Part shown: piece after piece, positions 14,588 to 37,270 of the stretch
Position numbering within the stretch: position 1 is the first letter of the stretch
Layout: the number at the start of each line of letters is the position of its first letter
Assembly: GCF_009828055.1 (NCBI RefSeq)
Contig: NZ_WTYB01000002.1
Location: forward strand, 1,240,001 to 1,304,000
DNA: 64,000 bases
Direction of reading: 5' to 3'
Source of the DNA: Erythrobacter ramosus
Lineage (GTDB): Bacteria; Pseudomonadota; Alphaproteobacteria; Sphingomonadales; Sphingomonadaceae
Position numbers and translations under genes: made by a program
The notes under the pieces: model-generated
What the model was told of the DNA's origin: nothing
The model's database searches: none
Seen by the model: only the letters and a program-made list of their open reading frames with translations

Positions 14588-14611
14588 GGTTTGCCTTGCT
14601 TTTTTCGCGGG

Positions 14612-15909: not shown

Positions 15910-15921
15910 CCGGCGATCATT

Positions 15922-17540: not shown

Positions 17541-17544
17541 CGGC

Positions 17545-18630: not shown

Positions 18631-18805
18631 GATTCGTCCCCTATGTTGCGGGTGCGAACATCCCCTCGTTTGCTGCGTTTGTCTATGGGGAATTATTACG
18701 ATTGATTGCAAAAGTAATATGCGCAAGGTTGCGTCAGTCTGGCAGGTATTGTGCCCTTGCGGCGCTCCTCTCCTTCCCCTGCCATGCGTGGAGGCTCAGA
18801 GACCC
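18631..18805. promoter_or_regulatory. Divergent promoter region of ABC/carboxylase operon and lipoprotein gene
   Basis: 175 bases between divergent genes; an AT-rich core around 18685-18720 (GAATTATTACGATTGATTGC) is the likely promoter and NikR-like operator zone. It was searched for the conserved guanidine-I (ykkC) riboswitch motifs in the minus-strand leader and none was seen. GGAGG at 18790-18794 serves the plus-strand gene. Confidence 0.4.
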
Positions 18806-19891: not shown

Positions 19892-22426
19892 TCAGAACTT
19901 GTAGCCGAACTCCACCCCGAAGCGCTGACGTGCGCCCGGCGAGATGAACGATCCGCCAAACTCGACCGCGGTGATGACCTCGTTCAGATACTTCTCGTTG
20001 AACAGGTTTTCGGCATAGGCGGTCAACGACCAGCTATCGCCTTCTACCCCAACGCGCAGGTCCATCACTCCAAAGGTGTCGCGCTGCGAGATCGAATAGT
20101 CGGCATCGCCCACAAAGGCCGGCAGCGCCAGCGCCGAACCCGGCAGCAAGCCGCTGAACAGCGTCGGGTTGGGATCATCCTGCAACGTGTGGAACCACGT
20201 CGGCCCGGTGATGCGGTAATCCGCGCGGGTCACAAAGTTGACACTGTCGGTAACCGGCAGATCAAGCTGGGTGCCCACGTTGATTGTGTAGTCGGCAGTA
20301 TAGGGCGACTTGTTGCCCACAGTTACTGGGCGCGAGGCGTTTTCCCGGATTTCGCTTTCGGTCACGTTGCCCGAACCGAACACTGTCCAGCCATCAAGGA
20401 TTTCCGCCGACAGGTTAAGCTCGGCGCCGTACAGTTCGACCTCATCGATGTTCGAGACCACGCGCAACAGGCCGAAGCCGCCGACGAAGAACTCGAAGAA
20501 CTGCATGTCTTCGACCTTGGTGTAGTAGCCCGCCAGATCAAAGGTCACCGCGCCGTCCAGCAAGGTGCCCTTCATGCCCGCTTCGAACGCGCTGGAGACT
20601 TCCTTGCGGTACTGATCGTCAATCAGCACGTTGGTGCCGATGAAATCGTTGAACGCCGAGTCGACGATCGCGGCCGAGCCCTGGTTGTTGAAACCGCCCG
20701 ATTTGAAGCCGATCCCCCAGTTGCCGTAGAGGTTGATGTCGTCGGTCAATTCATACCGCAGCGAAATCTTGGGCTGGAACTGCTTGAAGGTTTCAGACTT
20801 CGGCGCGATAGGCTGAACCACGCCGCCTGAAACGGTCTGGCCGGGATTGATCGGTCCGCCCGCGATCGGATCGAACACCGCCGGAACGAGGCTCGACACC
20901 TGACGGTCCTCGATGTCGTAACGGCCCGCAAAGCTGACATTGAAGCGATCAGACACATCGGCATCGATGGACGCGAACGCCGCATAGACATCGGTCTTGA
21001 ACGCATCGTGGTAAAGCTGGGTGGTCGGGTTGTCCGAACCCGGTGCGTTATACAGCTCGCGGATGATGCCGCGACCAAGGTCCGCCCCAAGGCTCACGCC
21101 AACCTCCCGGTCGATGTGGAGGTAATAGGCGCCGACCTGCCAGTTGATGGCGCCGTCCCCGTTCGAGGCCAAGCGGATTTCGCCGCTGATGTCTTCCTGC
21201 TTGCGCACCTGGAACTGGGTGCCGTCGCAGGTGGTCGGGCTGTAAGGGCCGAAGGTCGATCCAGTGGCGGGATTGAAGATAAACGGGATTGGGCTGGCGC
21301 CGATGAAGGTCGGCGGGTTGAGCGGGAAGCCGGTAAGCGCCGTTGTCGATGCCGCGCAGGCATTGGCCGCCGCCACCGAAGCCGGGGTCGCGCCGGGGAA
21401 GGTGAAGCGGGCAAAGTCAGCCGAAGTGCTGTCCGCCGTCAACGACTGGTCGACATCGCTGTAGAGCACCCAAGCGGTCAGCGTGGTGCTTTCAAACTCA
21501 TGCTCGACCTTGGCCGAGGTTTCGAAGGTCACCTGATCATTGGTCGGGCGGATGTTCGAATAGAAGCCGAAGGGATGCTCGTTCACGTCTTCAAAGAACG
21601 CCGGGTTTACCGCCGCAAAGTTGGGCAGGTGGAAGCTGGCGTTGAAGTTGATCGAAGCGCCGCGCAGGTCAGCATAGCGCGCCTTCACATCGAGCTCGGT
21701 ATTCGGCCCCAGCTCGGCGACGAAGCGCCCGTCGATGCCGAACACTTCCTGATCGTCGATCGTCTTGGAATTGCCGAGGAAGCTGTTGCGGAAGAAGCCA
21801 TCGGTGGTCGAATAATTGGCCGACAGCACCAGCCCAGCCGTATCGCCGATCGGGGTCGAGATGTAGCCATTGGCAAGATAGGTGTTGTCCTGCGCCGCGC
21901 GCACCAACATCCCGCCTTCGAGCGCGTCGCCGGGCTTCAGCGTTTGCAGCACAATCGCGCCCGCCGCAGCGTTCCGGCCATAGAGCGCGCCTTGCGGGCC
22001 CTTCAGGATTTCGACCTGACGCAAGGTGCCCTGGTTCTGGTTCAATTGCGCGGTGTTGGTCTTGAGGATCCCATCGACCACCAGCGCGACCGAGCTTTCC
22101 GCGTCGCGCGCGCCGTTGATGCCGCGAATGTTGATCTGGGTGTCGCCCGCTTCGGCCGTGCCGGTGACGATGGTGACGCCCGGCGTCAGCTGGATGAAGT
22201 CATCCGCGCGCTGCACCCCGGTCTTGGCGAGCGTTTCCGCGCCGAACACGGTGACCGCGGCGGGCACGTCCTGAAGCGATTCCGACTGGCGGCGAGCGGT
22301 GACGATGATCCCGCCTTCTTCCTCGGCAGCAGGTTCAGAGGCGGGGGCGTCCTGCGCCAGAGCGGGCGAGGACAGGGCAATGGCGCCGAGCGCCGCGCCA
22401 GAAGCAAGAACCAAACGGACATTCAT
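19892..22426 (-). CDS. TonB-dependent outer-membrane receptor
   Basis: 844-residue receptor of ordinary length. It has a signal peptide (ASGAALGAIALSSPALAQ), then the TonB-box-like GGIIVTARRQSESLQDVPAA, the plug domain (VEILKGPQGALYGRNAAAGA near residue 145), and a beta-barrel ending in FGVEFGYKF with the terminal Phe needed for outer-membrane insertion. It is the last gene of a minus-strand operon with a racemase-like and two SnoaL-like proteins, 38 bases after the second of these. Position suggests it imports the substrate of the neighbouring catabolic genes; the ligand is not readable. Confidence 0.93.
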   Translation of the reverse strand: MNVRLVLASGAALGAIALSSPALAQDAPASEPAAEEEGGIIVTARRQSESLQDVPAAVTVFGAETLAKTGVQRADDFIQLTPGVTIVTGTAEAGDTQINIRGINGARDAESSVALVVDGILKTNTAQLNQNQGTLRQVEILKGPQGALYGRNAAAGAIVLQTLKPGDALEGGMLVRAAQDNTYLANGYISTPIGDTAGLVLSANYSTTDGFFRNSFLGNSKTIDDQEVFGIDGRFVAELGPNTELDVKARYADLRGASINFNASFHLPNFAAVNPAFFEDVNEHPFGFYSNIRPTNDQVTFETSAKVEHEFESTTLTAWVLYSDVDQSLTADSTSADFARFTFPGATPASVAAANACAASTTALTGFPLNPPTFIGASPIPFIFNPATGSTFGPYSPTTCDGTQFQVRKQEDISGEIRLASNGDGAINWQVGAYYLHIDREVGVSLGADLGRGIIRELYNAPGSDNPTTQLYHDAFKTDVYAAFASIDADVSDRFNVSFAGRYDIEDRQVSSLVPAVFDPIAGGPINPGQTVSGGVVQPIAPKSETFKQFQPKISLRYELTDDINLYGNWGIGFKSGGFNNQGSAAIVDSAFNDFIGTNVLIDDQYRKEVSSAFEAGMKGTLLDGAVTFDLAGYYTKVEDMQFFEFFVGGFGLLRVVSNIDEVELYGAELNLSAEILDGWTVFGSGNVTESEIRENASRPVTVGNKSPYTADYTINVGTQLDLPVTDSVNFVTRADYRITGPTWFHTLQDDPNPTLFSGLLPGSALALPAFVGDADYSISQRDTFGVMDLRVGVEGDSWSLTAYAENLFNEKYLNEVITAVEFGGSFISPGARQRFGVEFGYKF

Positions 22427-22464
22427 GGGACGGCTCTCCTGAAGAGGATTGAGAGGTTAGGCGA

Positions 22465-22875
22465 TCAAACGAGGACGTTGGCCCCGCTCATGTAGACATA
22501 GACTTCCTGAAACTTCGGGCCTTCTGGGCCGGGACGAAGCCGCCAGAAATTGGTGTTTTCCAGCAGCGTCACCTGCCCGGCTGCATCATGCAGTTCTGCG
22601 GTGAAGCTGGCTGTGATGCGGCCATTGGCCTCGTCCACGGTGCAGGTAAAATCGCGGTGGATGATAGTTTCGTAAGCGCCGAAGAAATCTTCGAACATCC
22701 GGCGGATTTCGGCCTTGCCGGCATGGCGCGTAAAGGCGGTCTGGACGCAGAACAGCGCCGTGTCATGGAAGCAGGCCAGTGCGCCTTCCATGTCCTTGGC
22801 ATCGACACGGGCGAAATATTTGTTGAGCGCGAAGTCGATCAGCTCGGCGCGCGACAGGGTGGGTTCGTACTGCAT
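22465..22875 (-). CDS. SnoaL/NTF2-like protein 1
   Basis: 136-residue alpha-plus-beta barrel protein: FALNKYFARVDAKDMEGALA, CFHDTALFCVQ, the GKAEIRRMFEDFF helix, and a C-terminal strand EVYVYMSGANVLV. Members bind small hydrophobic ligands or act as isomerases, cyclases or hydratases. It resembles the upstream gene (both end YVYMSG-N-L), so the two are paralogues and could form a heterodimer. It starts exactly where the partner stops. Confidence 0.82.
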   Translation of the reverse strand: MQYEPTLSRAELIDFALNKYFARVDAKDMEGALACFHDTALFCVQTAFTRHAGKAEIRRMFEDFFGAYETIIHRDFTCTVDEANGRITASFTAELHDAAGQVTLLENTNFWRLRPGPEGPKFQEVYVYMSGANVLV

Positions 22876-23306
22876 CAGACGTCCCCTTCCTTCAGCAGGT
22901 TGTCACCCGACATGTAGACATAGACCCGGTGGAACAACCGGTCCTTGAGGTAGAAGCGGTTGCAGTTTTCATACCGCAATTCCTCGCCCCCATTGGGGGT
23001 GATCAGTACCGTGAACTGCGAGCAGATGGCGTTCGTGTCCGGGTCGGCGGTGTGGACGAAATTGCCGTGCCAGATGCTTTCAAAATCGGCGAACAGCTTC
23101 ACGAACATCGCCCGAATCGCCTCGCGCCCCTGATGCACGGTGTTGCTGGTCACTTCGGTCAGCACCGCGTCCGGCGTGAAGCAATCGAGCACCTTGTCCA
23201 TGTGCTTGTTATCGACCCCATCAAAATACCGCTTGGTGACGATATCGACATAGACCGGATAGGGCAGCGCGGTCTGGCCCGACCCGCCCTCTTGCCATTC
23301 ACTCAT
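22875..23306 (-). CDS. SnoaL/NTF2-like protein 2
   Basis: 143-residue paralogue of the following gene: KRYFDGVDNKHMDKVLDCFT, HQGREAIRAMFVKLF, and RVYVYMSGDNLLKEG. Coupled both upstream (stop of the racemase-like gene overlaps its start) and downstream. The close pairing with a racemase-like protein and a TonB receptor points to a role in processing the imported compound. No catalytic residues can be assigned with confidence. Confidence 0.82.
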   Translation of the reverse strand: MSEWQEGGSGQTALPYPVYVDIVTKRYFDGVDNKHMDKVLDCFTPDAVLTEVTSNTVHQGREAIRAMFVKLFADFESIWHGNFVHTADPDTNAICSQFTVLITPNGGEELRYENCNRFYLKDRLFHRVYVYMSGDNLLKEGDV

Positions 23307-24049
23307 CAGTACCAGCCCTTTCGGATATCGGCGTGTTTGGGCACTTCGGGTGCGGGGAAGGCCTTCTTCGAATGGGTCAGTCCCAGCTCGATCAGCGTCT
23401 CCAATTGCTTGTAAGCGACCTGTCCGGGGTTGATCACCGGCACCGGCAGTTCGCTTTGAAGATAGGTGGCCGATTGGTGCATCGTGGTGGAGCCCAGCAC
23501 GATCACATCCGCGCCGTCCTCATCAATCGCGCGCATCGCCTCAGCCTTGAGCTTGGCGAAGACGACCTCTTCCTTGCCTTCGAGCAGTTCGGTCACGTCA
23601 GGCCGCGTGTCGATCGAGCGGACGCTGGCGCAGCGATGCTCCCAGCCGTGCTGGTTCAGCACCTTCTCGTAGAGCGGGAACCACTGCGGCCACATGGTGA
23701 GAACCGAAAACTTCTTGCCCAGCATCATCGCGGCAGCAAAGCTCGCCTCGCCGGGGCCGACGACGGGGATATTGAGGGCCGAGCGCAGCGGCCACAGCCC
23801 GGAATCGCTGACCGTATCGATCAGCACCCCGGCATAGCCTTCGTCCTCAGCCGTCACGCCTGCCTGAAACACCGTCCAGTCCATCAGCAGCGTATCGTGA
23901 TAGGAATCGCCCAGCGCCGCGCCCCAGCGCACCGCTTCAAATGTGGGCGCGAAGCCCGGGCGCACGAAATCGGCCGGAAGCTGCTGCGCGCGATTCGCGA
24001 CGCCTGCTTCGTCCATTGCGATCGGTACGATGACCTTGATACGCTGCAC
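23306..24049 (-). CDS. Asp/Glu/hydantoin racemase-like protein without catalytic cysteines
   Basis: 247-residue protein of the Asp/Glu racemase superfamily (two similar alpha/beta lobes). In hydantoin and Asp/Glu racemases a Cys sits in each lobe, in CxGDPGL-like and LGCAGM-like motifs. Here the matching segments read IDTVSDSGLWPL and VIVLGSTTMHQSA, so both cysteines are Thr and Ser. The only Cys is in HRCASV and is not in an active-site loop. The fold is probably kept with another reaction, or with binding only. It is the first gene of the minus-strand arm and lies just downstream of the TTGTATACAA site. Confidence 0.8.
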   Translation of the reverse strand: MQRIKVIVPIAMDEAGVANRAQQLPADFVRPGFAPTFEAVRWGAALGDSYHDTLLMDWTVFQAGVTAEDEGYAGVLIDTVSDSGLWPLRSALNIPVVGPGEASFAAAMMLGKKFSVLTMWPQWFPLYEKVLNQHGWEHRCASVRSIDTRPDVTELLEGKEEVVFAKLKAEAMRAIDEDGADVIVLGSTTMHQSATYLQSELPVPVINPGQVAYKQLETLIELGLTHSKKAFPAPEVPKHADIRKGWY

Positions 24050-24082
24050 GGCATTCCCCGATTGCCCGAAGCGCGCTGGTTA

Positions 24083-24092
24083 TTGTATACAA
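24083..24092. promoter_or_regulatory. GntR/FCD operator copy 1 (TTGTATACAA)
   Basis: A perfect 10-bp palindrome 34 bases upstream of the racemase-like start, in the gap shared with the divergent gntR gene. The same 10 bases occur upstream of the catabolic operon at 24989. The shape (TNGT...ACNA) fits FCD-type GntR operators, so it is the likely binding site of the regulator at 24247. Confidence 0.75.
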
Positions 24093-24246
24093 AACGTCCC
24101 CGTCAAGCATTTTACGCAAATGTTGCGCAGAGCGGCTGCCAGGTGTGTTTTTGTCACCTCACAGGCTTGCAGGCCCGGGCGCTTCGCCGCACAAGGACGC
24201 GCATGGACGCAGCCCTCTTCTCTTCCGCCCTGCGGATCGTACGCTC

Positions 24247-24930
24247 GTGAGCCGCGCATCCGAACGCGCCTACTCGGCGATCCGCGCGCATCTTCTCAGC
24301 GGGTCGGTGGCGGCTGGCGAACAGCTCACTGAAGACCAGCTCGCGCAGATCACCGGGGTCAGCCGCACGCCGGTGCGCGAGGCGGTGCGGCGGCTTGAGG
24401 ACGAGTTGCTGCTGGTCCGCTCTGACACCAAGCGATTGTTCGTCGCCGACTGGAGCCGCGACGACATCGAGGAGATGTTCGTGCTGCGCCAGATGCTCGA
24501 ATGCCACGCCGCCGAACGTGCGGCCAAGCGTCTTTCCCGCGAGCAGATCGCCGCGCTCGAGGCACTCAACAGCGAACTGACCGCGGCCGTTGAACAGAGC
24601 CCTCCCGATGTGGTGCGCTTTCTCGAGGCGAACCGCGCGTTCCACGAAGCGATCATCGATGCCGCCCATTCGCCGCGGCTGGGGCAGATGCTGGCAAAGC
24701 TGGTCGAGGCACCGGTGGTGCTGCGTACCGCGCGCACCTATTCGCAAAGCGACCTGCGCCAATCCGCGCGCGATCATGATGAACTGGTCGCCGCCTTTGC
24801 CGCACGCGATGGCGACTGGGCGCGCGCTGTGATGGGCAGTCACCTGCGCCGCGCGTTCCACACCTTTGCCAAGACGGTCGGTCCGAGAGCCGATGACGCG
24901 GCCAATGATCAGGACAGTAGAGAGGCGTAA
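24247..24930 (+). CDS. GntR-family regulator, FadR/FCD subfamily
   Basis: About 227 residues from the GTG at 24247; the frame stays open upstream, so a longer form from 24145 is possible but its extra residues look unlike the family. The N-terminal wHTH reads AYSAIRAHLLSGSVAAGEQL, ITGVSRTPVREAVRRLEDE. The C-terminal FCD helical domain carries metal-site residues in DIEEMFVLRQMLECHAAE, EANRAFHEAIIDAAHS and RDHDELVAAFAARD. It sits between the two arms of the island, each with a TTGTATACAA site, and is the presumed repressor released by a substrate-derived acid. Confidence 0.88.
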   Translation: MSRASERAYSAIRAHLLSGSVAAGEQLTEDQLAQITGVSRTPVREAVRRLEDELLLVRSDTKRLFVADWSRDDIEEMFVLRQMLECHAAERAAKRLSREQIAALEALNSELTAAVEQSPPDVVRFLEANRAFHEAIIDAAHSPRLGQMLAKLVEAPVVLRTARTYSQSDLRQSARDHDELVAAFAARDGDWARAVMGSHLRRAFHTFAKTVGPRADDAANDQDSREA

Positions 24931-24988
24931 CAACGCTGCCGTGGGGTTGCGGTTCCTGCATCATTTGCTACGCCAAGCATGATTGCAA

Positions 24989-24998
24989 TTGTATACAA
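24989..24998. promoter_or_regulatory. GntR/FCD operator copy 2 (TTGTATACAA)
   Basis: Second exact copy of the palindrome, 52 bases upstream of the HMG-CoA-lyase-like start and about 60 bases after the gntR stop. Two identical sites bracketing the regulator, each ahead of one operon, strongly suggest a shared regulon. Confidence 0.78.
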
Positions 24999-25050
24999 AC
25001 TGGGTAATTCACCCCCACCGGTCCTTCGCAGCAGCAACAGGCGATTCACG

Positions 25051-25959
25051 ATGTCATTCGGCACAATCGAACTGGTCGAGGTCGGCCCGCGCGACGGCTT
25101 GCAGAACGAGCCCGACATCATCTCGACCGAAGTGAAGCTCGACCTCATCAGCCGCATGATCGGCTACGGCGCACGGCGGCTTGAAGTCGCTAGCTTCGTC
25201 CACCCGCAGCGCGTCCCGCAAATGGCGGACGCCGAGGCTGTGATCGCTGGCCTGCCCGACCGGAGCGACTGCACCTACATCGGCCTCGTCCTCAACAAGC
25301 GCGGCGTGATGCGCGCGCTGGCCACCCGCGAGAATGGCGCGCGCGGCGTCGATCAGGTTGGCTGCGTGATCGTCGCCAGCGACACTTTCGGTCAGAAGAA
25401 TCAGGGCCAGACGATTGCGGAAGGCCTCGCCGAAACCCGTGATATGCTGCGCTTCGCCCGCGCCGAGGGAATGCGCGCGCAGGTCACGATCAGCGCCGCC
25501 TTTGGCTGCCCGTTCGAGGGCGAGGTGAAGCATGAAACGGTGCTCGCCATTGCCGAGGAGCTGGCGATTGAGAACCCCGAAGAAATCGCCCTCGCCGACA
25601 CCATCGGCGTCGGCACGCCGTGGGAAGCGGGCGAATTGTTCGGCAAGCTGGGTGAGACGCTCGGCGGAAAAATCCCGATGCGCGCGCATTTCCACAATAC
25701 GCGCGGCACCGGCATCGCCAATGCGTGGGAGGCGTACAAGGCGGGCGTGCGCACCTTCGACGCCTCGCTCGGCGGCCTCGGTGGCTGCCCCTTCGCCCCG
25801 CGCGCGACCGGGAACATCGCGACGGAGGACCTCATTTACATGATGGCGCGTTCCGGCGTGGACACGGGCATCGATCTCGCAGCCGCGATTGCGGCGAACA
25901 AGTGGTTTGCGGATGTGCTGGGGCGCGAATTGCCCTCGGCCGTTGCGCGCGCAGCATAG
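25051..25959 (+). CDS. HMG-CoA lyase-like TIM-barrel aldolase
   Basis: 302-residue enzyme of the HMGL branch of the DRE-TIM family. Catalytic and metal residues are visible: VEVGPRDGLQNE (Arg14, Asp15), the metal His pair in HFHNTRG, and the mobile-loop Cys in GLGGCPFAPRATGN. The family splits beta-hydroxy acyl-CoA thioesters to acetyl-CoA or related products. The substrate here is unknown, but a CoA-transferase is encoded three genes on. The ATG at 25051 is used rather than the frame from 24979, which would run across the operator. Confidence 0.88.
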   Translation: MSFGTIELVEVGPRDGLQNEPDIISTEVKLDLISRMIGYGARRLEVASFVHPQRVPQMADAEAVIAGLPDRSDCTYIGLVLNKRGVMRALATRENGARGVDQVGCVIVASDTFGQKNQGQTIAEGLAETRDMLRFARAEGMRAQVTISAAFGCPFEGEVKHETVLAIAEELAIENPEEIALADTIGVGTPWEAGELFGKLGETLGGKIPMRAHFHNTRGTGIANAWEAYKAGVRTFDASLGGLGGCPFAPRATGNIATEDLIYMMARSGVDTGIDLAAAIAANKWFADVLGRELPSAVARAA

Positions 25960-25975
25960 AGCATAAGGACACAGC

Positions 25976-28033
25976 ATGACTTACAGGTTGGGCGTTGATG
26001 TGGGCGGGACGTTTACCGACCTCCTGCTGTTCGACGAGGCGAGCGGCGCGTTCTGGCGGCATAAGACGCCGTCGACCCCGCATGATTCCTCCGAAGGCAT
26101 CCTGACGGGTGTGAAGGCGATCATGGCTCAGGCGGGCATTACTGCCGAGGACATCACCTACTTCCTCCATGGCACTACAGTTGCCACCAATGCCGTGCTG
26201 GAGGGCAAGGGCGCGCGGGTCGGCCTCGTCACCACGCAGGGCTACCGCGACATCATGCAGATCGCGCGCAGCTTTGTGCCCGGGGGACTCGCCGCGTGGA
26301 TCGTGTGGCCCAAGCCGCAGCCGCTCGCGCGGTTGGAGCACACGGTCGAAGTGCCGGGGCGGATGGACGCACAGGGCCGCGAAGTCGCTCCGCTGGATGA
26401 AGACGCGGTGCGGGCGGCTTTGCGTAAGCTGAAGGGTGATGGTATCGAGGCGCTGACCGTCTCGCTGATGAACGCCTACTTGAACGGCGCTCACGAAGCC
26501 CGGATCGGCCAGATTGCTGCCGAAGAACTGCCGGGCCTCCCCGTCTCGCTGAGCAACGAAGTCCTGCCCGAAATGCAGGAATACGAACGTACCCTCTCCA
26601 CCGTCGCCAACGCTGCGGTGCGTCCGGTGGTGAGCAAATATGTCTCGAACCTGCGCGACCGCTTGGCGACCGAGGGCTTCAAGGGCCGGTTGTCGCTGTT
26701 GCGCTCGGACGGCGGGTTGATGTCGAGCCAGAAGGCCGAGGAGCATCCAGTCAACATCCTCATGTCAGGCCCAGCAGGCGGCGTGACTGGCGCGCTTTGG
26801 GTGGCGAAGAATGCGGGCTTCGAGAATATCCTCACTCTCGACGTCGGCGGCACCTCCACCGACGTGGCGCTGATCCAAGGCCTCGAACCACGCCGCCAGC
26901 GCACCACCGAGGTCGGGCACTTGTCGGTCCGCGCATCGGCGCTGGACGTAAAGACCGTTGGGGCGGGCGGCGGCTCAATTGCCCACGTGCCGCAATTGAC
27001 CGGCGCGTTGCGGGTCGGCCCTGAAAGCGCGGGCGCGGTACCGGGGCCGGTGGCCTATAACAAGGGTGGCACGCTGCCCACGGTGACTGATGCCAACGTG
27101 GTGCTGGGCTACCTCCCCGAAGACCTGCTCGGCGGCAGCTTCAAGCTAGATCGCGAAGGCGCGAAGGTCGCAGTGCAGACCATTGCCGATGCGCTGGGCG
27201 TCACGCTGATGGAGGCCGCGCGCGGGATCATCGATATCGTCAATGAGAACATGTTCGGCGCGCTGCGCATGATTTCGGTGCAGCAGGGCTACGACCCGCG
27301 CGAATTTGCGCTGATGGGCTTTGGCGGCGCGGGACCGCTGCACGTCAATGCGGTCGCCCGCCTGATGGGCAGCTGGCCCGCGATCTCGCCCGTTTCCCCG
27401 GGCGTGCTCTGCGCACTGGGCGATGCGACCACGCGGATGCGCACCGAAACCGCGCGCAGTTTCTCGCGGCTGGCCAAGGATACCAGCATCGCTGACCTCG
27501 TTGCGGTGCTGGATGAAATGGCCGCGCAGACCCGCAGCGAATTGCTGGCTGACGGCATCCCCGAAGATCAGATCAACTCGCTGTTCGAAATCGACGTGCG
27601 CTATGCGGGCCAAGCCTTCGAAGTGCCGCTGACGATCACGCAGGACATTCTCGAAGCGGACGGGATCGAAGGCATCCTCGCGCGCTTTGACGAGGAGCAC
27701 TTGCGGCTCTTCACCTTCAACATGGATACGCCGCACGAGATCGTGAACCTGCGTGCGGTCGCCCAGGGGCAGGCCCCCGCCCTCCCCGCCACCGAGCTGC
27801 CCAAGGGTGACGGCAACCCCGCCGCCGCGAAGATCCGCGACCACACGGTGTGGATTGACGGGGCGGAACGCGCGGCGGTGATCTACGACCGCGCGAAGCT
27901 GCGGCAGGGCGATGTCATCTCCGGCCCGGCGATCATCACCGAAATGGATTCGACCACGTTGGTCGAACATGATTGCACCGCGCGCGTTGACGCCGTGGGC
28001 AACATCCTCATCACTCTCAAGGCGAAGGGCTAA
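25976..28033 (+). CDS. hyuA: Hydantoinase/oxoprolinase subunit A
   Basis: 685-residue ATP-dependent hydrolase or carboxylase subunit of the HyuA family. The N-terminal nucleotide fold is LGVDVGGTFTDLLLFDE; the central ATPase segment is NILTLDVGGTSTDVAL; MGFGGAGPLHVNAVARLM is the conserved late motif. With HyuB it opens amide rings such as N-methylhydantoin or 5-oxoproline, while related pairs carboxylate ketones. It starts 16 bases after the lyase gene and ends five bases before hyuB. Confidence 0.93.
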   Translation: MTYRLGVDVGGTFTDLLLFDEASGAFWRHKTPSTPHDSSEGILTGVKAIMAQAGITAEDITYFLHGTTVATNAVLEGKGARVGLVTTQGYRDIMQIARSFVPGGLAAWIVWPKPQPLARLEHTVEVPGRMDAQGREVAPLDEDAVRAALRKLKGDGIEALTVSLMNAYLNGAHEARIGQIAAEELPGLPVSLSNEVLPEMQEYERTLSTVANAAVRPVVSKYVSNLRDRLATEGFKGRLSLLRSDGGLMSSQKAEEHPVNILMSGPAGGVTGALWVAKNAGFENILTLDVGGTSTDVALIQGLEPRRQRTTEVGHLSVRASALDVKTVGAGGGSIAHVPQLTGALRVGPESAGAVPGPVAYNKGGTLPTVTDANVVLGYLPEDLLGGSFKLDREGAKVAVQTIADALGVTLMEAARGIIDIVNENMFGALRMISVQQGYDPREFALMGFGGAGPLHVNAVARLMGSWPAISPVSPGVLCALGDATTRMRTETARSFSRLAKDTSIADLVAVLDEMAAQTRSELLADGIPEDQINSLFEIDVRYAGQAFEVPLTITQDILEADGIEGILARFDEEHLRLFTFNMDTPHEIVNLRAVAQGQAPALPATELPKGDGNPAAAKIRDHTVWIDGAERAAVIYDRAKLRQGDVISGPAIITEMDSTTLVEHDCTARVDAVGNILITLKAKG

Positions 28034-28037
28034 GACC

Positions 28038-29936
28038 ATGCCGGCTCGCATCATCGAACCCAACACCACGCCGTTCCAGAAAATCGCCATCGACCCGGTG
28101 ACGCTCGACATCATCGAGAACGCGCTGCGCAACGCCCGCATCGAAATGGACGCAACGCTGGTGCGCACCGCCATGTCCCCCGGCATCCGCGAACAGGGGG
28201 ACGCCTTCCCGCTGATCTCCGATCCCGCCGGCAAGATGATCGTCGGCCAGTTCGGCAGCTTCATCGACGGCTTCCTCAAGCAGTTTGACGGCACGATCGA
28301 GGACGGGGACATGATCTTCCTGTCCGATCCCTATTCCTGCGGCGGCGCGGTCAGTCACTCCAACGACTGGCTTGTGCTGCTCCCGGTGTTCAAGGACGGG
28401 CGCCTGCTCGCCTACACCGCGATGTTCGGCCACCAGAGCGACATCGGCGGATCAGTCCCCGGCTCGATGCCGATCGGCGCGTCCTCGATCTTCGAGGAAG
28501 GCGTGCGCATTCCGCCCGTGAAGATCTGGAAGAAGGGCGAATACAACGAAGACCTGATGAAGCTGGTCATGCACCAGACCCGCAAGCCGGACTGGTGCCA
28601 GGCCGACCTCAACGCCCTGATCGCTTCGTGCCGGGTCGCCGCGCGCCGTGTGGTCGAAATGGCCGACCGCTTCGGGGATGACGTTTACGTCTCGGCCACG
28701 CAGGAGCTCTTGGCCCGCAACCACCGTGCGATGAAAGCGCTGCTGGCGATGGCGGTCGCCGAGGAGCCGGTGAGCTTCGAGGATTACATCTGCGACGACG
28801 GCAAGGGCTATGGCCCCTACAAGATCCGCTGCACCATGTGGCGCGATGGCGACCGCGTGATCCTCGATTTCCAGGGCACCGACCCGCAGTCCGCCGCCTC
28901 GATCAACTTTTTCCTCAATGAAAACATGTTCAAGATGTTCTTCGGCATCTACATGATCATGGTCTTCGATCCGCAGATCCTGTTCAACGACGGGTTCTAC
29001 GATCTGATCGAGGTGCGCATTCCGGAAGGCTCGCTCTTGAAGCCGCACTTCCCCGCCGCGCTTTCGGGCCGCACGCATGCGCTGGGCCGCATCTTCGACA
29101 TTCTGGGCGGCTTGCTCGGGCAGAAAACGCCGGAGTTCTTGAACGCCGCCGGGTTCTCCTCCTCGCCGCACCTGTTCTATTCGGGCTGGGATAGCCGCGA
29201 GGACGGGACGCGCGATTGGTTCCAGCTGTTCCAGATCGGCTTTGGGGGCATTCCGGGCCGACCGCTGGGTGACGGGCCGGACGGGCACTCGCTATGGCCG
29301 GGGTTCACCAATGTGCCGAACGAGTTCCTCGAACGCTACTTCCCGCTGCGGATCGAACGCTACGCCACCGCGCCCGATAGCGGCGGGGCGGGCCTCCATC
29401 GCGGCGGCAACGGCATTCACATGACCTACCGTTTCCTCGCTGATGGCGAGATCGCAATCCATGACGACCGCTGGTTCGTGCCGCCGTGGGGCGTCAATGG
29501 CGGCCATCCGGGAGCGCGGGCGAAGAAGGTGCTGGAGCGCGCCGACGGCAGCCAAGAAATCGTCGGCAACAAGGTCGAGAGCGTAGCGGTGAAGGCCGGC
29601 GATCTGCTGCACTTCATCACCTGGGGGGGCGGCGGCTGGGGCGACCCGCTGGCGCGTGGCCCTGAGCTCGTCGGCCTCGAAATCCGGCAGGGCCTCGTTA
29701 CGGCTCAAGGCGCCCGCGACTATGGCGTTGTCGCCGATGCTGCGGGCACGGTGGACACCGCCGCCACCCAAGCCTTGCGCGCGGAAATGTCAGCGTCGCG
29801 TGGGGAGCTGCCGCTGTTCGACTACGGCCCGGGCATCGACGCCCTGCGTGCCAATTGCGAGGCCGAGACGGGCCTCCCCGCCCCCGTCCAGCCGGTCTGG
29901 AACTCCCATCCCGGTATGCGCGAGGCGGCAGAATGA
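28038..29936 (+). CDS. hyuB: Hydantoinase/oxoprolinase subunit B
   Basis: 632-residue partner of HyuA. Family motifs: IENALRNARIEMDATLVRTA, SDPYSCGGAVSHSNDW, MFGHQSDIGGSVPGSMP, and a C-terminal KAGDLLHFITWGGGGWGDPL. The ATG at 28038 was chosen because it is the first start after the hyuA stop and matches the usual N-terminus. Its stop overlaps the CoA-transferase start by ATGA. Substrate range cannot be read; the isochorismatase-like amidase two genes on would fit a carbamoyl product. Confidence 0.93.
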   Translation: MPARIIEPNTTPFQKIAIDPVTLDIIENALRNARIEMDATLVRTAMSPGIREQGDAFPLISDPAGKMIVGQFGSFIDGFLKQFDGTIEDGDMIFLSDPYSCGGAVSHSNDWLVLLPVFKDGRLLAYTAMFGHQSDIGGSVPGSMPIGASSIFEEGVRIPPVKIWKKGEYNEDLMKLVMHQTRKPDWCQADLNALIASCRVAARRVVEMADRFGDDVYVSATQELLARNHRAMKALLAMAVAEEPVSFEDYICDDGKGYGPYKIRCTMWRDGDRVILDFQGTDPQSAASINFFLNENMFKMFFGIYMIMVFDPQILFNDGFYDLIEVRIPEGSLLKPHFPAALSGRTHALGRIFDILGGLLGQKTPEFLNAAGFSSSPHLFYSGWDSREDGTRDWFQLFQIGFGGIPGRPLGDGPDGHSLWPGFTNVPNEFLERYFPLRIERYATAPDSGGAGLHRGGNGIHMTYRFLADGEIAIHDDRWFVPPWGVNGGHPGARAKKVLERADGSQEIVGNKVESVAVKAGDLLHFITWGGGGWGDPLARGPELVGLEIRQGLVTAQGARDYGVVADAAGTVDTAATQALRAEMSASRGELPLFDYGPGIDALRANCEAETGLPAPVQPVWNSHPGMREAAE

Positions 29937-31114
29937 GCGCGCTTCAAGGGATCAAAGTCGTCGAGATGGGCCAGCTCCTCGCCGGCCCGTTCTGTGGCCA
30001 GTTGCTCGGCGACATGGGTGCCGACGTCGTCAAGATCGAGCCGCCGGGCGCGGGCGATCCGATGCGCAGCTGGGGTCAGGGCGACGAGAAGGTGCAGTGG
30101 GAGGTGATCGCCCGCAACAAGCGCTCGGTCACCTGCAACCTGCGCGTGCCCGAAGGACAGGCGCTCGCCAAGCGGCTGATCGCCGAGGCCGATGTGCTGA
30201 TCGAGAACTTCAAGCCCGGCACGCTGGAACGCTGGGGCCTCTCGCCGGCAGAACTCCACGCGGTTAACCCCGGCCTGATCATCGCCCGCATGTCGGGCTA
30301 CGGGCAGGACGGGCCGTACAGCGACCGCGCAGGCTTCGGCGGGATCGGCGAGGCGATGGGTGGATGGCGCTACATCGTCGGCGAACCTGACCGTCCGCCC
30401 AGCCGCATGGGCATCTCGATCGGCGACACTCTGTGCGCCACCTATGGCGCGATGGGTGTGCTCGCCGCGCTGCACCACCGCGAGAAGACGGGCGAGGGGC
30501 AGGTGGTCGATTCCGCGCTGTACGAGGCAGTGTTGCAGGTGATGGAGGGCCTCGTGCCCGAGTACGACCGCAACGGCGTGATCCGCGAACGCTCCGGCTC
30601 GGTGCTGAAGGGCATCGCCCCGTCGAACGTCTATTCCTGCAAGGACGGCAGCTACATGATCGGCGCCAATGGCGATGCGATCTTCGCGCGGCTGTGTCAG
30701 GCGATGGGTCGGCCGGAGCTGTCGAGTGACCCGCGCTATGCCACGCATATCCCGCGCGGGATCCATCAGGACGAGTTGGACGCGCTGATCAACGACTGGA
30801 CGGGCACGCTCACAGTCGACGAAGTCGATGCGCTGATGATCGAATATTCGATTCCCGCAGGCCGGGTCTACCGCGCGCCCGATATGCTCGCCGACCCGCA
30901 TTTTCAGGCGCGCGAGGCGATCATTGAGGTCGAGACGCAGAACCGCGGGCGGATCAAGATGCAGAACGCCTTCCCGAAGCTCTCCAAGACCCCTTCGACC
31001 ATTCGCCGCCCTGCGCCTGCCGCGCCAGGTCAGGACAATGCCGAGGTCTTCGCTGAGCGGCTGGGTCTGGATGCCGCCGAGCTCACGCGGCTGGCGGAAG
31101 CGGGGATCATCTGA
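29933..31114 (+). CDS. Class III CoA-transferase, CaiB/BaiF family
   Basis: 393-residue CoA-transferase. Marks: MSALQGIKVVEMGQLLAGPF, the CoA-binding GADVVKIEPPGAGDPMR, the RNKRSVTCNL strand, and the catalytic Asp in IGDTLCATYGAMGVLAALHH near residue 164. The family transfers CoA between carboxylic acids, so here it could activate the acid cleaved by the HMGL-like enzyme. It overlaps hyuB by ATGA and the next gene by TGATG. Confidence 0.92.
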   Translation: MSALQGIKVVEMGQLLAGPFCGQLLGDMGADVVKIEPPGAGDPMRSWGQGDEKVQWEVIARNKRSVTCNLRVPEGQALAKRLIAEADVLIENFKPGTLERWGLSPAELHAVNPGLIIARMSGYGQDGPYSDRAGFGGIGEAMGGWRYIVGEPDRPPSRMGISIGDTLCATYGAMGVLAALHHREKTGEGQVVDSALYEAVLQVMEGLVPEYDRNGVIRERSGSVLKGIAPSNVYSCKDGSYMIGANGDAIFARLCQAMGRPELSSDPRYATHIPRGIHQDELDALINDWTGTLTVDEVDALMIEYSIPAGRVYRAPDMLADPHFQAREAIIEVETQNRGRIKMQNAFPKLSKTPSTIRRPAPAAPGQDNAEVFAERLGLDAAELTRLAEAGII

Positions 31115-31749
31115 TGGGCGGCCCCTCGGCATCCGACAATTACGCCGGGGTGTACGAGGGGCGGCTCCAGCCGGGGTCGCGCCCGGCGCTGCTGATCGTC
31201 GATGTGGTGGTCGCCTACCTCACCGAGGGTTCGGCGCTGTTCATGGAGACTGCCGCTGCCGCGAAAGATGCGAACCGGCGCTTGGCCCTAGCGGCGCGCG
31301 CGGCGGGGGTGCCGGTGGTGTTCACCAACGTCCAGTACAAGCCTGACGGCTCGGATGGCGGTGTGTTCTATCGCAAGGCGCCTGTGCTGAAAGCCTTCGT
31401 GGAAGGATCGCCGCTCGGGGCCTTTCCCGACGACCTCACCCCCCAACCGGGCGATAGGGTGTTCACCAAGCAATATCCCAGCGCCTTCTTCGGCACCGAC
31501 CTTGCCAATGCCCTGCACGCCGATGGCATCGATACGCTGCTGATCACGGGTTACTCCACCTCCGGCTGCGTCCGGGCAAGCGCGCTCGATGCGATGCAAT
31601 ACGGCTTTGTCCCGCTGGTGGTGCGCGAGGCTTGCGCCGACCGCCACCCCGCCCCGCACGAAGCCAACCTGTTCGACCTCCAGGCCAAATATGCGGAGGT
31701 CATATCCGAGGCCGAAGCGCTTGCGGTGATTGCGGCACACCCTGCTTGA
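31114..31749 (+). CDS. Isochorismatase-fold amidohydrolase (N-carbamoylsarcosine amidase-like)
   Basis: 211-residue cysteine hydrolase. The catalytic triad is visible: Asp in ALLIVDVVVAY, Lys in RVFTKQYPSAFFGT and Cys in GYSTSGCVRASALDAMQYGF. N-carbamoylsarcosine amidase belongs to this family and acts right after N-methylhydantoinase in creatinine breakdown, which makes the HyuAB neighbourhood suggestive. Length is normal for the family. The gene is coupled to the CoA-transferase. Confidence 0.88.
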   Translation: MGGPSASDNYAGVYEGRLQPGSRPALLIVDVVVAYLTEGSALFMETAAAAKDANRRLALAARAAGVPVVFTNVQYKPDGSDGGVFYRKAPVLKAFVEGSPLGAFPDDLTPQPGDRVFTKQYPSAFFGTDLANALHADGIDTLLITGYSTSGCVRASALDAMQYGFVPLVVREACADRHPAPHEANLFDLQAKYAEVISEAEALAVIAAHPA

Positions 31750-31850
31750 TCGCAACCCGCGACACCGGCAACCCGCACTTTTTGGCTTGTGCGCGGCGGG
31801 CTGGGCCTGCAAGTAATGCGCCGGCGGGCATCAACAGGGAGAAGCGCCTC

Positions 31851-33167
31851 GTGGCATTTGCAAAGTCGAGGCGATGGGCAATCGCCGGTCTGACGGGAAC
31901 CGCCCTCACCGGCATCGCTCTGACAGCAAGCCCAGTGGCAGCACAGGAACGCCCGGTCGCCTTCACCGGCGCGCGCATCCTCACCATGGCGGGCGAGCCA
32001 ATCGAAAACGGCACGATCGTGATCAAGGACGGCAAGATCGTCGCGGTCGGGGCCAATGTCGCGATTCCGGCTGATGCAAAGCGCCGCGCGGTTGATGGCC
32101 GGGTGATCATGCCCGGCATCGTCGACACCCATTCGCATATCGGTCAGGTCGCAGGCGCGGACGGTTCCGGTCCAATCCAGCCCGAAGTCCGCGCGATGGA
32201 TTCGATCAACCCGTTCTCCACCTCAATCGACAAGGCCCGCGCGGGAGGGGTCACCACCGCCAACATCATGCCCGGATCGGGCCACCTGATGAGCGGGCAG
32301 ACCTTCTACATGAAGCTGCGCAAGGGCCGTACCGTTGAGGACATCGCGTTCGCAATGAAGGGCGCAGCCGCGCTCGGCGGCATGAAGATGGCAAATGGCA
32401 CCAACCCGATGGGCGGGAGCGGCTTTCCGGGAACCCGCGCCAAGTCCGCCTCGCTGGTGCGCGAGCAGCTGACCGAAGCCAAGGCCTATTGCGACGGCGA
32501 CCGCAAGAAGCGCGATCTTGGCAAGGAAGCGCTGTGCGAGGTGCTTTCGGGCGAGCGGTTGGTGCATTTCCACACGCACCGCGCCGATGACATCATGACC
32601 GTGCTGCGGCTCAAGCAGGAATTCGGCTTCAGCGTGCTGATCCAGCACGGCACCGAAACGTGGAAGGTCGCTGAGGAACTGGCCAAGGCCGGCGTGCCGG
32701 TATCGAACATCACGCTGGATGCACCGGGCGGCAAGCTGGAGACGGTCGATCTCAGGATGGACAATGCCGCCATCCTCGAACGCGCGGGCGTGCTGGTGTC
32801 GATCCATTCGGACGACGCCATCGTGGATTCGCGCATGATGCTGCGCGAGGCCGCGCTGGCGGTGCGCGGGGGGATGAGCCGCGATGGCGCCTTGCGCGCG
32901 CTGACGATCAACGGGGCCAAGCAGATGCGGCTCGATGCCCGCGTGGGCTCGCTTGAAGTCGGCAAGGATGCCGATTTCCTCGTGCTCGATGGCGATCCGC
33001 TGTCGACATACACCCACGTGCTCGAAACCTGGGTGGAGGGCGACAAGCTGTTTGATCGCAGCCTGCCTGAGGATTTGTTGATGGCGACGGGAGGCTTTGG
33101 CGCGGGCAGCCCGATGGAAGCCTCGCACCACCACTGGGAAATTGCCGAAGCGGAAGGGCACAACTGA
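31851..33167 (+). CDS. Exported metal-dependent amidohydrolase
   Basis: 438 residues from a GTG at 31851, chosen because AGGGAGA lies about 9 bases upstream and the frame then opens with a signal peptide (AIAGLTGTALTGIALTASPVAAQ). The metal site is intact: PGIVDTHSHIGQ, the late VHFHTHRADDIM, the segment with SVLIQHGTE, and VSIHSDDAIVD. A final GSLEVGKDADFLVLDGDPLS is typical of imidazolonepropionase/dihydroorotase-like enzymes. It probably hydrolyses a cyclic or peptide-like amide in the periplasm, before or after uptake. Confidence 0.88.
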   Translation: MAFAKSRRWAIAGLTGTALTGIALTASPVAAQERPVAFTGARILTMAGEPIENGTIVIKDGKIVAVGANVAIPADAKRRAVDGRVIMPGIVDTHSHIGQVAGADGSGPIQPEVRAMDSINPFSTSIDKARAGGVTTANIMPGSGHLMSGQTFYMKLRKGRTVEDIAFAMKGAAALGGMKMANGTNPMGGSGFPGTRAKSASLVREQLTEAKAYCDGDRKKRDLGKEALCEVLSGERLVHFHTHRADDIMTVLRLKQEFGFSVLIQHGTETWKVAEELAKAGVPVSNITLDAPGGKLETVDLRMDNAAILERAGVLVSIHSDDAIVDSRMMLREAALAVRGGMSRDGALRALTINGAKQMRLDARVGSLEVGKDADFLVLDGDPLSTYTHVLETWVEGDKLFDRSLPEDLLMATGGFGAGSPMEASHHHWEIAEAEGHN

Positions 33168-34399
33168 TGCGTATCGCCGGATATTGCCTTGCCGCCGCCA
33201 GTGCACTCGCGCTCGGCACTGCTGCCTACGCGCAGGACATCGCCATTAGGGGCGGCGAGGTTCACACCATGGCAGGCCCCGCCATCACGGACGGGGTGGT
33301 GGTGATTGACGACGGAAAGATCGTCGCCGTCGGCCCCGCCGCCAGCACACCGATCCCCGAAGGCTTCACTGTGATCGAGGCCAAGGTCGTCACCCCCGGT
33401 CTTGTCGATGCGCGCACTGTGGTCGGGCTGGCGGGCTATCTCAATCAGGAGCACGATCAGGATCAGCTGGACGAAAGCGCCCCTGTGCAGCCGCAGTTGC
33501 GCGCGATTGACGCCTATAATCCCGGCGAGGCGCTGGTGGCATGGCTGCGCGGCTTTGGGGTCACCACGATCCACACCGGTCACGGCCCCGGCGCGCTGGT
33601 TTCGGGCCAGACGATGATCGCCAAGACGGTCGGCAACACTGCCGATGCTGCCGTGATCGTGCCCCGCGCGATGGTCGCCGCCAATCTCGGGCCGGGCGCG
33701 CTGGCCGAGGGCGGCAAGGCCCCGGGCACCCGTGCCAAGCAGATCGCGATGCTGCGTCAGGCGCTGCTCGCCGCGAAGGAAGGCGACGCGCCCAAGCCTG
33801 CGAAGAAGGGCGAAGAAAAGTCCGGCCCTGACAAGCCGCTCAGCCTTGAGGTGCAGGTGATGCGCGATGTGCTCGCCCGCAAGCTGCCGCTGCTGATCAC
33901 CGCCCACCGCGCGCAGGACATCATGAGCGCACTGCGGCTGCGTCAGGAGTTCGGCATTGATGTCGTGCTCGACGGAGCGGCTGAGGCCTATCTGCTGACG
34001 AACGAGATCAAGGCGGCCGGGGTCAAGGTCATCCTTCACCCGCCGATGGCGCGGCAATATGGCGAGTTCGAAAACGCCAGCTTCACCACCGGCGCGGCGC
34101 TACGCGCGGCGGGCATCCCGTTCGCCTATCAGTCGGGTTACGAAGGCTATGTTCCCAAGACCCGCGTGATCCTGTTCGAAGCCGGTGTCGCGGCGGCAAA
34201 CGGGTTGGCGTGGAATGACGCGCTGGCGAGCATCACCATCGATGCGGCGCGGGTTATCGGGCTGGAAAAGCGGGTCGGCTCATTGGAAGTCGGTAAGGAC
34301 GGCGATGTCGCGCTGTTTGACGGCGATCCCTTCGAATACGCCTCGCACACGGTGGGCGTGGTGATCGACGGCAAGGTCGTCAGCACCGCCACGCAGTGA
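33167..34399 (+). CDS. Exported amidohydrolase paralogue lacking the HxH metal motif
   Basis: 410-residue paralogue of the upstream gene, coupled to it by TGATG. It has a signal peptide (LAAASALALGTAAYAQ) and the family frame TPGLVDARTVVGLAGYLNQE, but the His-x-His of strand 1 is replaced by Arg-Thr. Other marks remain: LLITAHRAQDIM, GYEGYVPK in place of the usual HSD loop, and GSLEVGKDGDVALFDGDPFE. The metal centre is probably lost or altered, so it may be a regulatory or structural partner of the active paralogue. A Lys/Pro-rich insert lies near residue 210. Confidence 0.85.
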   Translation: MRIAGYCLAAASALALGTAAYAQDIAIRGGEVHTMAGPAITDGVVVIDDGKIVAVGPAASTPIPEGFTVIEAKVVTPGLVDARTVVGLAGYLNQEHDQDQLDESAPVQPQLRAIDAYNPGEALVAWLRGFGVTTIHTGHGPGALVSGQTMIAKTVGNTADAAVIVPRAMVAANLGPGALAEGGKAPGTRAKQIAMLRQALLAAKEGDAPKPAKKGEEKSGPDKPLSLEVQVMRDVLARKLPLLITAHRAQDIMSALRLRQEFGIDVVLDGAAEAYLLTNEIKAAGVKVILHPPMARQYGEFENASFTTGAALRAAGIPFAYQSGYEGYVPKTRVILFEAGVAAANGLAWNDALASITIDAARVIGLEKRVGSLEVGKDGDVALFDGDPFEYASHTVGVVIDGKVVSTATQ

Positions 34400-34417: not shown

Positions 34418-34873
34418 TCAGCCCAGCGCCGCGGCTTCCTTGATGGCGCGGCGGATGCTCATATAGGTGGCACAGCGGCACAGGTTGCCGCTCATCGCTT
34501 CGTCGATGGCCGCGTCGTCGGGCGTGGGATTGTCCCGCAGCAGCGCAGTCGCGGCCATGATCTGACCCGATTGGCAATAGCCGCACTGAGGGACGTCATT
34601 GGCGACCCACACCTGACGAATGGCATCGGCGGCAGCGCCTTCAACGCCCTCGATCGTGGTGATCTCCGCCCCTTCGAGCGAATCATGCGGCGTCACGCAG
34701 GAGCGGGTCGGCGCGCCGTCGACATGGACAGTGCAGGCGCCGCACTGCGCGACCCCGCAGCCGAATTTCGTGCCCGTCATGCCAAGATGATCGCGCAGCA
34801 CCCACAGCAAAGGCGTGCCCGGAGCAGCATCGACGCTTGCGGATTTCCCGTTGATTTTGAGGGTAATGGCCAT
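34418..34873 (-). CDS. iorA: Isoquinoline 1-oxidoreductase-type alpha subunit (2Fe-2S)
   Basis: 151-residue iron-sulfur subunit of a molybdenum hydroxylase. Plant-type cluster: TKFGCGVAQCGACTVHVDG plus Cys in TRSCVTPH. The second cluster is QCGYCQSGQIM and GNLCRCATYMSIRRAI. It passes electrons from the Mo-pterin subunit encoded just upstream. It is convergent with the amidohydrolase pair (18-base gap). The organic N-heterocycle or aldehyde used is unknown. Confidence 0.92.
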   Translation of the reverse strand: MAITLKINGKSASVDAAPGTPLLWVLRDHLGMTGTKFGCGVAQCGACTVHVDGAPTRSCVTPHDSLEGAEITTIEGVEGAAADAIRQVWVANDVPQCGYCQSGQIMAATALLRDNPTPDDAAIDEAMSGNLCRCATYMSIRRAIKEAAALG

Positions 34874-34888
34874 GTTCGGCTCCTGATC

Positions 34889-37270
<2,382 letters not shown>

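Follow-up and report, generated by a model that had tools for sequence, protein, structure and literature searches.

A conserved operator and a GntR-type regulator mark a TonB receptor–HyuAB gene cluster in sphingomonads, probably for the use of a ring-shaped nitrogen compound

Hydantoin-utilization (hyu) clusters consist of HyuA, HyuB, HyuC, and HyuE. A stretch of 64,000 nucleotides from Erythrobacter ramosus (contig NZ_WTYB01000002.1, positions 1,240,001 to 1,304,000 of the forward strand; the window, on which all positions below are counted) carries a gene cluster that resembles them in combining HyuA and HyuB with a hydantoin-racemase-fold protein. It differs from them in that the racemase-fold protein is cysteine-less and optional, the amidase has another fold, and a class III (CaiB) coenzyme A (CoA) transferase, an HMG-CoA-lyase-type C–C lyase (HMGL), and a TonB-dependent receptor are added. 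Single parts of the cluster resemble other described systems. Caprolactamase (CapAB) and N-methylhydantoinase belong to the same two-subunit HyuAB family and are the best NCBIfam and PDB matches. However, HyuA and HyuB score 538 and 220 bits against the caprolactamase models, whose cutoffs are 1000, and are not assigned to that activity. The maleamate amidohydrolase NicF and N-carbamoylsarcosine amidohydrolase share the isochorismatase fold and the motif TSGCVR with the amidase; beside its gene no nicotinate or creatinine genes were noticed, although no dedicated search for them was made. Nicotinate fermentation uses 2,3-dimethylmaleate hydratase and 2,3-dimethylmalate lyase. Relatives of the present cluster likewise have a lyase of the isocitrate-lyase/PEP-mutase (ICL/PEPM) type beside HyuAB and the isochorismatase-fold protein, whereas the cluster in the window carries CaiB and HMGL and no hydratase. 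The Asp/Glu racemase fold is shared with OpaE and the allantoin racemases. A search of open-access papers for this gene set or its substrate class found none describing the pathway, and HyuA, HyuB, CaiB, and the isochorismatase-fold protein reach no curated substrate-level cutoff in NCBIfam. An earlier note on this DNA likewise named no known pathway with the full set and held that it may be undescribed.

The cluster has two arms with the regulator gene between them. On the minus strand lie the TonB-dependent receptor (19892–22426; Pfam Plug and beta-barrel), SnoaL-like protein 2 (22465–22875) and its paralogue SnoaL-like protein 1 (22875–23306; both Pfam SnoaL_2), and a protein of the Asp/Glu/hydantoin racemase fold (23306–24049; Pfam Asp_Glu_race). 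On the plus strand lie HMGL (25051–25959, probable start 25051; Pfam HMGL-like), HyuA (25976–28033), HyuB (28038–29936), CaiB (29933–31114), and an isochorismatase-fold amidohydrolase (31114–31749; Pfam Isochorismatase); the starts of HyuB and CaiB are counted from the open frame. On the open frames the start of CaiB overlaps the stop of HyuB, and the start of the isochorismatase gene overlaps the stop of CaiB, which fits a single operon. The regulator gene (24247–24930, plus strand) has a probable GTG start at 24247 in a frame open from 24145. Its product matches both GntR (PF00392, 56.3 bits) and FCD (PF07729, 97.6 bits), and thus has a winged helix and an effector domain.

The palindrome TTGTATACAA occurs exactly twice in the window. 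The first copy (24083–24092) is between the racemase-like gene and the GntR gene; it starts about 33 bases upstream of the former and also fronts the latter, which is divergent. The second copy (24989–24998) ends about 50 bases upstream of the probable HMGL start. No other place in the window is within one mismatch, none of 100 shuffles reached two copies, and in the whole genome (3,240,350 bases) the exact string is found only at these two sites. The identical palindromes before both arms, with the regulator between them, are therefore as the earlier note had described them. MatR and other FCD regulators have sites like TTGTATACAA, a likeness that a literature search for the string did not confirm.

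Gene and operator counts were made on 80 loci, kept from 105 confirmed ones that had been found through the racemase-like protein in named genomes. These loci come mainly from Sphingomonadales (Erythrobacter, Porphyrobacter, Blastomonas, Sphingorhabdus, Parasphingorhabdus, Novosphingobium, and others). Their 1.48 Mb contain 126 exact copies of TTGTATACAA, which are non-independent events as the loci are mutually related; 125 of the copies lie ahead of HMGL or another core unit. The other palindromes with an equal number of G/C, 159 in all, occur at most 11 times each in the same loci. Counted from the side of the genes, with one unit at a contig end excluded, 201 of the 228 unit fronts judged have the exact operator, 12 have it with one mismatch, 6 with two mismatches, and 9 have none. 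In 31 loci CaiB heads its own unit with a copy of TTGTATACAA in front, and in other loci the isochorismatase gene has been relocated behind the receptor, so that the operator tracks the units through several gene orders. At least one site is also present in 17 of 18 loci that were picked through HyuB and have no racemase-like gene. These sequence data support a GntR regulon in which a single regulator would act on a conserved operator before nearly every unit, and they bear out the proposal that both arms belong to one such regulon. We take this to be a real and conserved gene cluster, probably catabolic and under a single regulator. The regulon probably lets aquatic sphingomonads import and degrade a ring-shaped nitrogen compound.

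Membership of the cluster follows from which genes recur. In the 80 loci, several of whose contigs end early, the racemase-like gene is present in 80 (it was the bait), SnoaL 2 and GntR in 76 each, and the receptor and SnoaL 1 in 75 each; HyuA is present in 73, HMGL in 70, CaiB in 68, HyuB in 67, and the isochorismatase gene in 50. The racemase-like gene is absent from 18 genomes of the genus that have HyuB, and 12 of these were fetched (all but G005, G013, G015, G017, G027, and G034); other families of the order contributed six HyuB loci (without G047 and G051, for example). The 18 HyuB-chosen loci without the racemase-like gene have HyuA and HyuB in 18, HMGL, CaiB, and GntR in 16, and the receptor and the isochorismatase gene in 14; no SnoaL gene was found in them. 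Because these loci retain most of the cluster, the trio of the racemase-like gene and the two SnoaL genes is optional, and the core is the TonB receptor, GntR with its operator, HMGL, HyuA, HyuB, CaiB, and the isochorismatase gene. Of the members listed in the earlier note, the core genes hang together across the order; two exported amidohydrolases, described below, drop out, and the trio becomes optional.

Presence in the genus agrees for HyuB and HMGL. At an expect value (E) of up to 1e-60, 30 of 37 genomes have both, 6 have neither, and 1 has HyuB alone. HyuB was counted in 31 of the 37 (three as fragments only), HMGL in 30 (five matches are only 54–56% identical), and the racemase-like gene in 13. 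Two genomes (G057 and G042, loci L232 and L233) have HMGL without HyuB and with no further core gene nearby; HMGL alone is therefore no marker of the cluster. The trio is also found apart from the core: all three genes stand among other genes in L136, and in L144 the racemase-like gene and one SnoaL gene adjoin another CaiB/HMGL pair. A second, distant CaiB/HMGL pair (around 28–40% identical) lies near the locus in L074, L105, L144, and L247. Two glutathione-transferase-like genes, called by Pfam in L135 and by clustering or eye in L038, L110, and L111, adjoin the receptor or the trio in these four loci, where the receptor is around 46–48% identical.

HyuA and HyuB satisfy the wider Pfam families Hydantoinase_A and Hydantoinase_B (492 bits for HyuB). 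The nearest solved chains of HyuA are N-methylhydantoinase (7hk5, 477 bits) and, next, 5-oxoprolinase (6yra, 389 bits). A solved chain of the acetophenone carboxylase gamma subunit is matched at 313 bits, which would suit HyuAB being an ATP-dependent carboxylase or a ketone-activating enzyme like the acetone and acetophenone carboxylases. We rejected this idea and keep it as a weak and very unlikely rival: HyuA scores higher with the ring hydrolases N-methylhydantoinase, 5-oxoprolinase, and caprolactamase, and by eye no third carboxylase subunit is seen in the cluster. The score against the ApcC equivalog of these carboxylases is 322 bits, with a cutoff of 1500.

Relatives of HyuAB outside the order have different partners for the last step. 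The set comprised every plasmid record, 20 in total and from bacteria and haloarchaea, in which a HyuB relative was found at E up to 1e-100. HyuA is present in all 20 and an isochorismatase relative in 12. CaiB and HMGL are the partner in four records (L234, L237, L238, L246; two Novosphingobium, Acidiphilium, and Geobacillus), CaiB and a LeuA-like protein in three (L241, L243, L253; haloarchaea), and an ICL/PEPM-type protein in nine (L239, L240, L242, L244, L247, L249–L252; four haloarchaea and five Novosphingobium, the latter with HyuB 77–78% identical). CaiB alone is found beside HyuAB in one record (L245, Rubrobacter), and no partner was found beside HyuAB in three (L235, L236, L248; Sphingomonas JE1, Sphingobium TomTYG65, and N. 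resinovorum). Distant relatives of CaiB lie several kb off in L247 and L249, together with a distant HMGL relative in L247. For the ICL-type proteins of Neorhizobium, Natronomonas, and Halorientalis, the top match is methylisocitrate lyase, with scores under the cutoff. In Neorhizobium, where HyuB is only 32% identical, the gene row is PrpD, ICL/PEPM, HyuB, HyuA, a cysteine hydrolase, two other genes, and two racemase-fold genes. Six of the 20 plasmid records have genes of the PuuE/polysaccharide-deacetylase type close to HyuAB, and in Variovorax such genes are close to an isochorismatase-type gene; the polysaccharide-deacetylase family includes cyclic imide hydrolases. A search of 190 genomes of the class gave HyuB in 14 at E up to 1e-150; this counts presence, with neighborhoods covered only where they were fetched for other reasons. 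That distant bacteria and archaea share the HyuAB core but pair it with different last-step enzymes hints at a cyclic-imide type of ring as the substrate. The plasmids L235 and L236 carry a HyuAB around 76–77% identical to that of the window. FAD oxidoreductases and a succinate-semialdehyde dehydrogenase are encoded next to it, and neither record showed a relative of isochorismatase, CaiB, or HMGL.

The isochorismatase-fold protein retains the catalytic cysteine motif TSGCVR in alignment, and the motif TS.C(V/I)R is present in 10 of 11 scanned relatives, being absent in Neorhizobium. The nearest solved relative is N-carbamoylsarcosine amidohydrolase (26st, 145 bits), followed by 3ot4 and 3uao at 134 bits, the last of which we take to be the maleamate amidase NicF. 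The two matches are about equal, so that decarbamoylation by this amidase, as the earlier note had it, is one option and is not singled out. In such a ureide route, HyuAB would open a hydantoin-like ring, the isochorismatase-fold enzyme would decarbamoylate the product, CaiB would activate it, and HMGL would cleave it. We regard this as improbable. It is in keeping with the nearest solved relatives of the two hydrolases, N-methylhydantoinase and N-carbamoylsarcosine amidohydrolase, with the annotation of one relative as the latter enzyme, and with the urea carboxylase/allophanate hydrolase locus that adjoins the cluster in the window. However, the amino acid produced would offer CaiB and HMGL nothing obvious to cleave, and only some loci have the urea locus's transporter gene beside the cluster. 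The ICL/PEPM-type gene beside HyuAB in nine plasmid records suggests a hydroxy-diacid instead of an amino acid, and the LeuA-type partners also fit such a diacid better.

CaiB scores 425.7 bits against CoA_transf_3 (cutoff 23.3) and reaches no equivalog cutoff; its best NCBIfam match is succinate-glutarate CoA-transferase at 269.5 bits, below the cutoff of 750, and its solved relatives include succinate-hydroxymethylglutarate CoA-transferase. HMGL scores 289.8 bits against the curated HMG-CoA lyase model NF004283, above the cutoff of 246, and is the sole match in a search of its own genome. These results would also suit a route in which an imide or amide yields 3-hydroxy-3-methylglutarate (HMG), or a closely related C5 diacid, through HyuAB and the amidase, with CaiB as a succinyl-CoA:HMG CoA-transferase and HMGL as a true HMG-CoA lyase giving acetyl-CoA and acetoacetate. 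Its chances appear poor in view of the ICL/PEPM-type partner: lyases of this type are not known to act on 3-hydroxyglutarates.

We tentatively favor, at a little less than even confidence, a substrate-inducible catabolic regulon in which a cyclic imide or amide is opened, the half-amide is converted into a diacid of the malate/citramalate type, and the latter is activated with CoA and cleaved at a C–C bond. The GntR/FCD protein would bind TTGTATACAA, an operator shown by its conservation, in front of every unit and of its own gene, and may repress until a ligand frees the DNA. The TonB receptor would import the compound. Enzymes of the HyuAB family use ATP to hydrolyze cyclic amides, those related to the isochorismatase-fold protein split half-amides or ureides, and class III CoA-transferases activate acids. 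Judging from their families, HyuAB would open the ring, spending ATP, and the isochorismatase-fold enzyme would turn the half-amide into the dicarboxylic acid; these two steps would release ammonia from a cyclic imide and leave a diacid. CaiB would load CoA onto the diacid, and HMGL would split the 3-hydroxyacyl-CoA into an acyl-CoA and a keto acid. The racemase-fold protein and the SnoaL pair may be an optional adaptor that feeds a related compound into the pathway.

For the diacid, the malate/citramalate type is the likeliest: beside related HyuAB genes, CaiB and HMGL are swapped for CaiB and a LeuA-like protein or for an ICL/PEPM lyase, and such an acid suits all three. Its hydroxyl is rightly placed for HMGL once the far carboxyl bears CoA, it is the reverse-direction substrate of enzymes of the LeuA/citramalate-synthase type, and ICL/PEPM lyases cleave malate-type acids. 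In our analysis it would be the only class we can name that fits the three lyase modules. An example of an ICL/PEPM lyase is 2,3-dimethylmalate lyase (a title in the reference list of PMC7609661).

Several observations weigh against the favored pathway. No hydratase gene is present in the window's cluster, so the hydroxyl would be already present or added elsewhere. The HMGL score above the HMG-CoA lyase cutoff fits plain HMG equally. Among the 20 plasmid records, an isochorismatase relative was not found in eight, including the five ICL-bearing Novosphingobium, and a C–C lyase was not found in four; HyuAB, CaiB, and ICL/PEPM genes are common, and these adjacency counts carry no control for chance meeting. 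Genes of the LeuC/LeuD type are near the HyuAB core in Geobacillus and Acidiphilium. Those of Geobacillus pass the ordinary 3-isopropylmalate dehydratase cutoffs (811.8 versus 560.25 and 268.7 versus 116.25 bits) and are separated from the core by a transposase gene; they may be leucine genes, thus a weak hint for the pathway that proves little. This result and the missing isochorismatase relatives lowered our confidence in the favored pathway.

A more specific version of the favored pathway, which we consider doubtful, is an undescribed route of bacteria and haloarchaea for five-membered imides of the maleimide/malimide type. HyuAB would be an ATP-driven imidase acting ahead of a half-amidase of the isochorismatase fold, C–C cleavage would fall to one of three interchangeable modules, and in sphingomonads one GntR operator and new chemistry by the cysteine-less racemase-fold and SnoaL proteins would be added. 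Tetrapyrrole breakdown products are possible natural sources of such imides. If the favored reading is right, the operator-defined regulon is a handle on a widespread use of cyclic nitrogen compounds as food, and a comparison of their breakdown in bacteria and archaea is ready at hand.

The racemase-like protein has the fold of its superfamily (Foldseek TM of 0.83 between the predicted model and allantoin racemase 3qvk). The positions of the two catalytic cysteines are occupied by Thr79 and Ser187, unlike Cys90/Cys199 in OpaE (PMC12661438). OpaE C199S or C90S/C199S retains at most 0.3% of the activity and a single mutant (C90S by context) 4.8%, and that paper describes the two cysteines as conserved throughout the superfamily. 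All 87 relatives with at least 60% identity have Thr/Ser at these positions, and the 31 relatives with 45–60% identity have Thr/Ser (27) or Ser/Ser (4). Both cysteines are thus absent throughout the 118 distinct relatives with at least 45% identity (114 Thr/Ser and 4 Ser/Ser); the 13 relatives below 45% have Thr/Ser (5), Ser/Ser (1), Cys/Cys (2), or other pairs (5). Racemization by this protein was therefore rejected, and the label of racemase is not retained. The conservation of Thr/Ser, taken with the OpaE mutants, points to a conserved branch within the Asp/Glu racemase superfamily in which the fold persists, both catalytic cysteines are lost, and presumably a different reaction is catalyzed. 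Records of this branch labeled "aspartate/glutamate racemase family protein" are probably misread. Set against the earlier note as a whole, our results uphold its observation and its regulon and leave out part of its membership and chemistry.

The cysteine-less branch is uncommon: at E up to 1e-40, 17 of 385 genomes searched in the class and 6 of 398 in the phylum have a match. Six copies per genome at this threshold, some in tandem (L189, L192, L193, L199), occur in three genomes (G089, G219, G395) that belong to a single alphaproteobacterial family. We inspected 24 more neighborhoods in which the gene is 45–70% identical, leaving out L201 (no qualifying racemase-fold match) and L196 (the same record as L149). 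Within 9 kb there are isochorismatase-type hydrolases (9), HyuB (7), HyuA, amidases, and SnoaL (6 each), PuuE-type deacetylases, PrpD, Rieske oxygenases, and an FAD oxidoreductase (4 each), and, more rarely, TonB-dependent receptors and ICL/PEPM (3 each) and CaiB and HMGL (2 each), counts that have no chance control and use reference sequences partly taken from five of these loci. The Rieske-oxygenase neighbors yielded no substrate clue. SnoaL 1 and SnoaL 2 are 36% identical in alignment, and the predicted model of SnoaL 2 (pLDDT 96) has an NTF2/ketosteroid-isomerase-like fold.

Downstream of the isochorismatase gene are two open reading frames for exported amidohydrolases (31851–33167, start counted from the open frame, and 33167–34399; both plus strand). 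They match the imidazolonepropionase and Xaa-Pro dipeptidase families weakly, far below the cutoffs, and by eye both have signal-like N-termini. Adjacency was counted on all 97 loci of two sets that partly duplicate each other, one of them the 80; as far as the contigs reach, several ending early, the amidohydrolases adjoin the cluster in two (L023 and L041), both with a HyuA 97% identical to that of the window. In G010 and G008, draft genomes with the cluster, amidohydrolase 1 has its nearest relative (89% and 74%) on a different contig. The two proteins, which the earlier note had placed in the HyuAB arm, are thus neighbors and were rejected as members. Adjoining amidohydrolase 2 is a two-gene molybdenum hydroxylase (34418–37270, minus strand; a 2Fe-2S and a large subunit, named by eye), which adjoins the cluster in none of the 97 loci. 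No known RNA family matches the window at its gathering score. Beside the receptor arm, positions 8608–18726 of the minus strand hold a locus for urea or a related compound, with allophanate hydrolase, urea carboxylase, two associated proteins, a NikR-like regulator, and an ABC transporter; in some related loci of the 97 the binding-protein gene of this transporter adjoins the cluster as well.

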